From Caryophanales bacterium (GTDB lineage: Bacteria; Bacillota; Bacilli; JARBTR01): a DNA stretch of 64,000 nt. A program made the position numbers and the translations under genes. The notes beneath the pieces were generated by a model that was not told the origin of the DNA, ran no database searches, and worked only from the letters and a program-made list of their open reading frames with translations. Location: positions 1 through 64,000 of the forward strand of contig JARBTR010000002.1 of assembly GCA_029240105.1 (NCBI GenBank), read 5' to 3'. This document shows, one piece after another, positions 16,555 to 16,853 of the stretch (position 1 is its first letter; each line of letters starts with the position of its first letter).

Positions 16555-16853
16555 TAAGCCGACGGGAGTCGAACCCATAGGGTTTAATCGTTATGATTTC
16601 AACGCTATTGTTGTTCTCCTCTGGCGACATATTAACGATATGGCTTCTTCGTTGGCCTAAATATCGTTGAAATCATTTAGATTAAACTCGAAGACCTTAT
16701 CTTGATTCTTTTGAAGCAAGACAAGGCAGATGTGACGAAGCGTATTGGACATACACTAGGAACATCTAACGCAGTATTGAAAAAAAGATTCAAGATAAGG
16801 CCTATGGGTTCGATTCCCGTCTGCTTAGCATTACGATTACGTAATGCTTTTTT
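16555..16853 (+). ncRNA. large three-way-junction structured element between sigA and trmK
   Basis: Outer stem: 16555-16581 pairs with 16801-16827 (27 positions, two mismatches). Arm A: 16582-16604 with 16665-16687 (8 bp, short internal loop, 12 bp). Arm B: 16695-16712 with 16783-16800 (one mismatch). Each arm has a 60-70-nt loop with smaller inverted repeats. The 3' outer strand carries GGGTTCGATTCCC, identical in form to a tRNA T-arm, but there is no D-arm or anticodon arm, so this is not a tRNA. A strong terminator begins where the outer stem ends. No ORF or ribosome site. Either a processed small RNA, a structured sigA 3' UTR or a foldback mobile element. Confidence 0.6.
16828..16853 (+). 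terminator. rho-independent terminator of the sigA/structured element unit
   Basis: GCATTACG, ATTA loop, CGTAATGC (8 bp perfect), then six T. Confidence 0.9.

Follow-up and report, generated by a model that had tools for sequence, protein, structure and literature searches.

Several families of short dispersed repeats offer points of comparison for the sequence described here. RUP (repeat unit of pneumococcus) is 107 bp long, has ends of ~9 bp and is present in ~108 copies; its insertion target is TA, and IS630-Spn1 has been suggested to mobilize it in trans (PMC2229807, PMC3049150). The NEMIS/Correia repeats of Neisseria measure 107/155 bp, and NEMIS transcripts have been proposed as RNase III targets when co-transcribed (PMC2229807). 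In the Bacillus cereus group, bcr1-bcr18 are dispersed repeats of 100-400 bp whose mobility has been linked to TTTAT motifs (PMC6542083). For most bacterial repeats of the MITE kind, the partner is unknown (PMC2229807).

The locus considered here lies directly downstream of a predicted sigA gene in a window of 64,000 nucleotides (positions 1 to 64,000 of contig JARBTR010000002.1) from a Caryophanales bacterium. A preliminary description of this DNA had proposed an sRNA processed from the sigA mRNA, an attachment site derived from a tRNA T-arm or a nonautonomous foldback element. The last of these readings is the one our data favor: the sequence is very probably a MITE-like, nonautonomous foldback DNA element of ~270 bp that an IS630/Tc1-mariner-type transposase probably mobilizes in trans. 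It would be an ordinary kind of mobile element, belonging to a family that appears to be undescribed.

Results and discussion

A strongly folded sequence between sigA and its probable terminator

The near-perfect 27-position inverted repeat noted earlier, closing two long arms, is indeed present (Table 1). The terminal inverted repeat extends over 32 nt at 88% (16555-16586 with 16796-16827), with its outer 27 nt at 93% and TAAGGTGATGGGAGTCGAACCC-like ends, and the arm pairings observed join 16582-16609 to 16660-16687 and 16685-16712 to 16783-16810. When folded as RNA, positions 16555-16853 reach a minimum free energy of -126.3 kcal/mol compared with -66.4 (sd 4.8) for shuffled sequences (z -12.5), and 0 of 200 shuffles folded as well, so the structure itself is real and above chance. 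Measured against their own shuffles, the element's minus strand and its single-stranded DNA reach z -10.9 and z -11.0, respectively, close to the plus-strand RNA, so the fold by itself does not point to RNA. Coding capacity over the ~273 bp is limited to short chance open reading frames, with no transposase frame among them.

Table 1. Positions in the window of the folded element and its neighboring features.
Feature	Position	Strand	Remarks
sigA (predicted), 378 aa	15413..16549	+	Stop codon 16547-16549; identity suggested by the sequence and the preliminary description
TA, left copy of target duplication	16555..16556		
Left terminal inverted repeat	16555..16581	+	
Element proper, very probably MITE-like foldback	16557..16825	+	269 bp between both TAs; 273 bp (16555-16827) with TAs
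Left internal arm	16582..16689	+	Helix of 8 bp + 12 bp; copy L007 lacks this arm
Right internal arm	16690..16803	+	17/18 bp, then further hairpins
Right terminal inverted repeat	16801..16827	+	Contains T-arm-like GGGTTCGATTCCC
TA, right copy of target duplication	16826..16827		
Intrinsic terminator	16827..16853	+	GCATTACG-ATTA-CGTAATGC + T-run; most likely the original sigA terminator, displaced by the insert
trmK-like next gene, 230 aa	16912..17604	+	

A canonical terminator starting where the stem ends was likewise recovered by our scan (stem 16827-16848 plus T-run), but it does not hold up as part of the element, as it is seen at the sigA copy only and the other copies have no terminator there. 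Removing the element and one TA in silico yields AAACT-TA-GCATTACG, that is, the sigA stop, 5 nt, TA and the terminator, which leaves seven bases (AAACT-TA) between the sigA stop codon and the stem GCATTACG...CGTAATGC-TTTTTT. Most likely, then, this is the terminator of sigA, stranded beyond the insertion and no part of the element, which would account for its purposeful look. The TrmK-like protein encoded downstream has its nearest relatives among named genomes in Bacillaceae (up to 59% identity), and a quick search for the end of sigA in named relatives, run to compare sigA-trmK spacing, placed that end far upstream of trmK or missed it in most, so the spacing was uninformative.

The T-arm-like GGGTTCGATTCCC is present on the 3' strand as described. 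It fits the T-arm consensus and shares 16/16 identity with part of a tRNA-Asp, as would be expected had an attachment site derived from a tRNA T-arm become inverted here. We nonetheless consider such an origin extremely improbable: the best agreement with any of the 26 tRNA genes on the fetched loci is 21/34 and does not extend past the T-arm core, tRNA genes are absent both at the element copies and, by a tRNA gene search, from the window, inspection of the copies' neighbors revealed no integrase, and a TA duplication does not fit an attachment site. The resemblance probably reflects the universal T-loop consensus, and we regard it either as coincidence or as the trace of a remote origin that cannot be proved. 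As a separate observation, ARAGORN calls a selenocysteine tRNA (anticodon tca) at L035:1432-1528, near G000:C11:205704.

Copies of the element are dispersed across the genome

Whether copies lie elsewhere or only after sigA was resolved by searching the genome that contains the window at the nucleotide level, which recovered the ~273-bp sequence on four contigs: six copies are full-length, one (C10:10318) lacks the left arm, and two are fragments (C8:306369 and C11:197995). The full copies other than that in the window lie at C10:266875, C8:336485, C10:110958, C10:97755 and C5:24747. Identity between copies ranges from 74 to 98%, and every full copy retains the terminal inverted repeats. When up to three mismatches were allowed, a 19-mer from the terminal repeat matched 13 places in the genome, 12 of which are ends of known copies, while the remaining match (C8:253210, three mismatches) is no known copy end; the reversed 19-mer, used as a control, gave 0 matches in the genome.

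The element is not tied to sigA. Its copies sit between genes or at gene edges, in unrelated neighborhoods and in both orientations relative to genes, with neighbors that include, from translations read by eye, an SNF2-type helicase, a DEAD-box helicase, pnp with an M16 peptidase, dnaE with an nrnA-like gene, glutamate racemase with a MarR-type regulator, and two moeA-like genes. At L006 (open reading frames 2-1522 and 1658-2572), the element copy overlaps both frames, with the helicase-like frame ending inside it and the downstream frame appearing to start inside it.

Beyond this genome, blastn against plasmids and phages gave no match, an exact 22-nt pattern found no match in viral contigs or GTDB genome contigs, and 100 relatives plus 400 genomes of the class contained no convincing relative; these searches used single sequences and a consensus, which very diverged relatives could escape. 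Those genomes gave only matches of 22-29 nt within low-complexity stretches of the right arm, as well as one of 75% over 61 bp without resemblance beyond it; we took both kinds as chance. A search of the order returned only the window's own genome, suggesting sparse sampling of the lineage, to which the family may be restricted.

Insertion occurs at TA

Copies L003, L004 and L005 all interrupt a second dispersed repeat (repeat B) at one and the same position, and at least 12 other copies of repeat B cross that point uninterrupted, reading CCTGAGCCTAAGGTCTCAGG or a close variant. The empty site reads CCTGAGCC-TA-AGGTCTCAGG or a close variant, with a single TA, whereas the filled site reads CCTGAGCC-TA-AGGTG...CACCT-TA-AGGTCTCAGG or a close variant, with the TA doubled. 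Because the element ends resemble the target, the duplication at L003-L005 could strictly have any extent between TA and TAAGG, but L001, L002 and L006, which have other flanks, carry TA at both ends and have TA alone in common. Comparison of filled and empty sites establishes insertion at TA with doubling of the TA, although the inverted repeat itself includes TA and the duplication is directly visible only at the one site with empty counterparts. L003 and L004 are 97.8% identical, and L003-L005 may therefore represent one insertion that spread with repeat B.

Repeat B is itself palindromic, at least 185 bp long and present in about 16 or more copies, many 91-99% like the query (L053-L068 and others, e.g. 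G000:C4:53644-53828, C6:126267-126449 and C10:228420-228603). Its left end carries a terminator-like hairpin, ACCAGC-AAGCTGGT-CCTTTT.

Altogether, the element is short, lacks transposase coding, and shows terminal inverted repeats, dispersed copies and a target-site duplication relative to empty sites, as MITEs do, and TA duplication is a trait of elements mobilized by IS630/Tc1-mariner transposases. A transposase encoded elsewhere, most likely of this type, would recognize the ~27-bp terminal inverted repeats and insert the element at TA, duplicating it. At the window locus, insertion would have separated the stop codon of sigA from the sigA terminator, and the element is presumably co-transcribed with sigA as a long folded 3' UTR. 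We infer the transposase type, as we do any present activity of the family and any effect on the sigA mRNA. Against this reading, no IS630-type transposase (PF13358, NF033545) was found in the window's genome, although the assembly is about 85% complete, and the search with the terminal 19-mer revealed no longer element with the same ends.

Pairing is kept among subfamilies but decays in young copies

We imposed the L005 fold on a seven-copy alignment, using shuffles that ignore the relatedness of the copies. Pairing was retained in 91.3% of alignment cells compared with 88.3 +/- 0.5% in shuffles, 18 pairs had changed on both sides, where shuffles gave 8.3 +/- 2.1 and slid controls 2-5, and the covariation score was 0.124 against 0.075 +/- 0.009. 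RNAalifold also reported 18 two-sided pairs, with a slightly unfavorable overall covariation term (+3.99 kcal/mol). The excess of two-sided changes over shuffles indicates that pairing was kept while the subfamilies diverged. The younger copies L003 and L004 tell the opposite story, as all six of their private stem changes break pairs and none is compensated (L005, the source of the structure, was left out). The covariation anticipated for a functional structure is thus seen across subfamilies, but not in the young copies, which show pair-breaking only.

Compensatory change in the main helices is what a functional structured RNA, either an sRNA or a 3'-UTR element, would be expected to leave if it were kept by host selection and multi-copy by happenstance, and the sigA copy would be co-transcribed and precedes a terminator. 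Such an RNA is improbable given the unrelated gene neighbors and mixed orientation of the copies, the uncompensated changes in L003 and L004, the similar z-scores of both strands and of DNA, and an Rfam scan of the window that returned 0 matches above the gathering score. Selection on a plus-strand RNA should also favor G-U departures, whereas in mostly Watson-Crick columns we counted 10 G-U and 12 A-C cells, about equal numbers, though the counts are small. For the more specific proposal of an sRNA processed from the sigA mRNA, the lack of a tie to sigA, the occurrence in both orientations and the decay of two young copies speak against it.

Equal G-U and A-C departures are instead as expected for DNA, and it is conceivable, though unlikely, that the three-way-junction fold (extruded or single-stranded hairpin DNA), and not the inverted ends alone, is the mobility substrate. 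Both internal arms keep pairing across subfamilies in addition to the ends, three copies occupy the center of the palindromic repeat B, and the copy after sigA lies at the foot of the terminator hairpin. If this were so, the fold would be under selection, with sources keeping their arms paired while residents decay, and transposition in this family would proceed via an intermediate of folded DNA. On the other side, TA doubling together with inverted repeats is what ordinary cut-and-paste transposition leaves, L007 lacks the left arm (though it is possibly a dead copy), and homogenization of the arms by template switching could also produce two-sided changes. Under the favored reading of a MITE-like element moved in trans, the pattern probably reflects either constraint on the source element while moving or such homogenization, with resident copies decaying. 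The contrast between compensation in old subfamilies and pair-breaking in young copies offers a usable test of mobile-source against resident-RNA selection.

Comparison with described repeats

Our findings account for the conspicuous fold behind a housekeeping gene as the scar of a transposition event, and they add a TA-inserting foldback family, apparently undescribed so far, from a Bacilli-like lineage. By description, NEMIS/Correia repeats likewise have TA at their ends, inverted repeats of ~24 bp and long stem-loop transcripts (PMC2229807), but they are shorter and belong to an unrelated organism; by analogy with NEMIS, the sigA 3' UTR could be targeted by RNase III. The bcr1-bcr18 repeats resemble the element as dispersed repeats of Bacilli, although its target is TA rather than the TTTAT motifs linked to their mobility (PMC6542083). 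The element is longer than RUP (~273 bp), with longer ends (~27 bp), two internal arms and fewer occurrences (~9, fragments included), and while RUP has a putative partner in IS630-Spn1, no partner transposase was found for the element in the about 85%-complete assembly. By description, both are nevertheless short, noncoding and intergenic, with inverted ends, a TA target and a tight fold with paired ends, in low-GC Gram-positive hosts. RUP thus appears closest to the element in behavior, with an anatomy that resembles that of bacterial MITEs.
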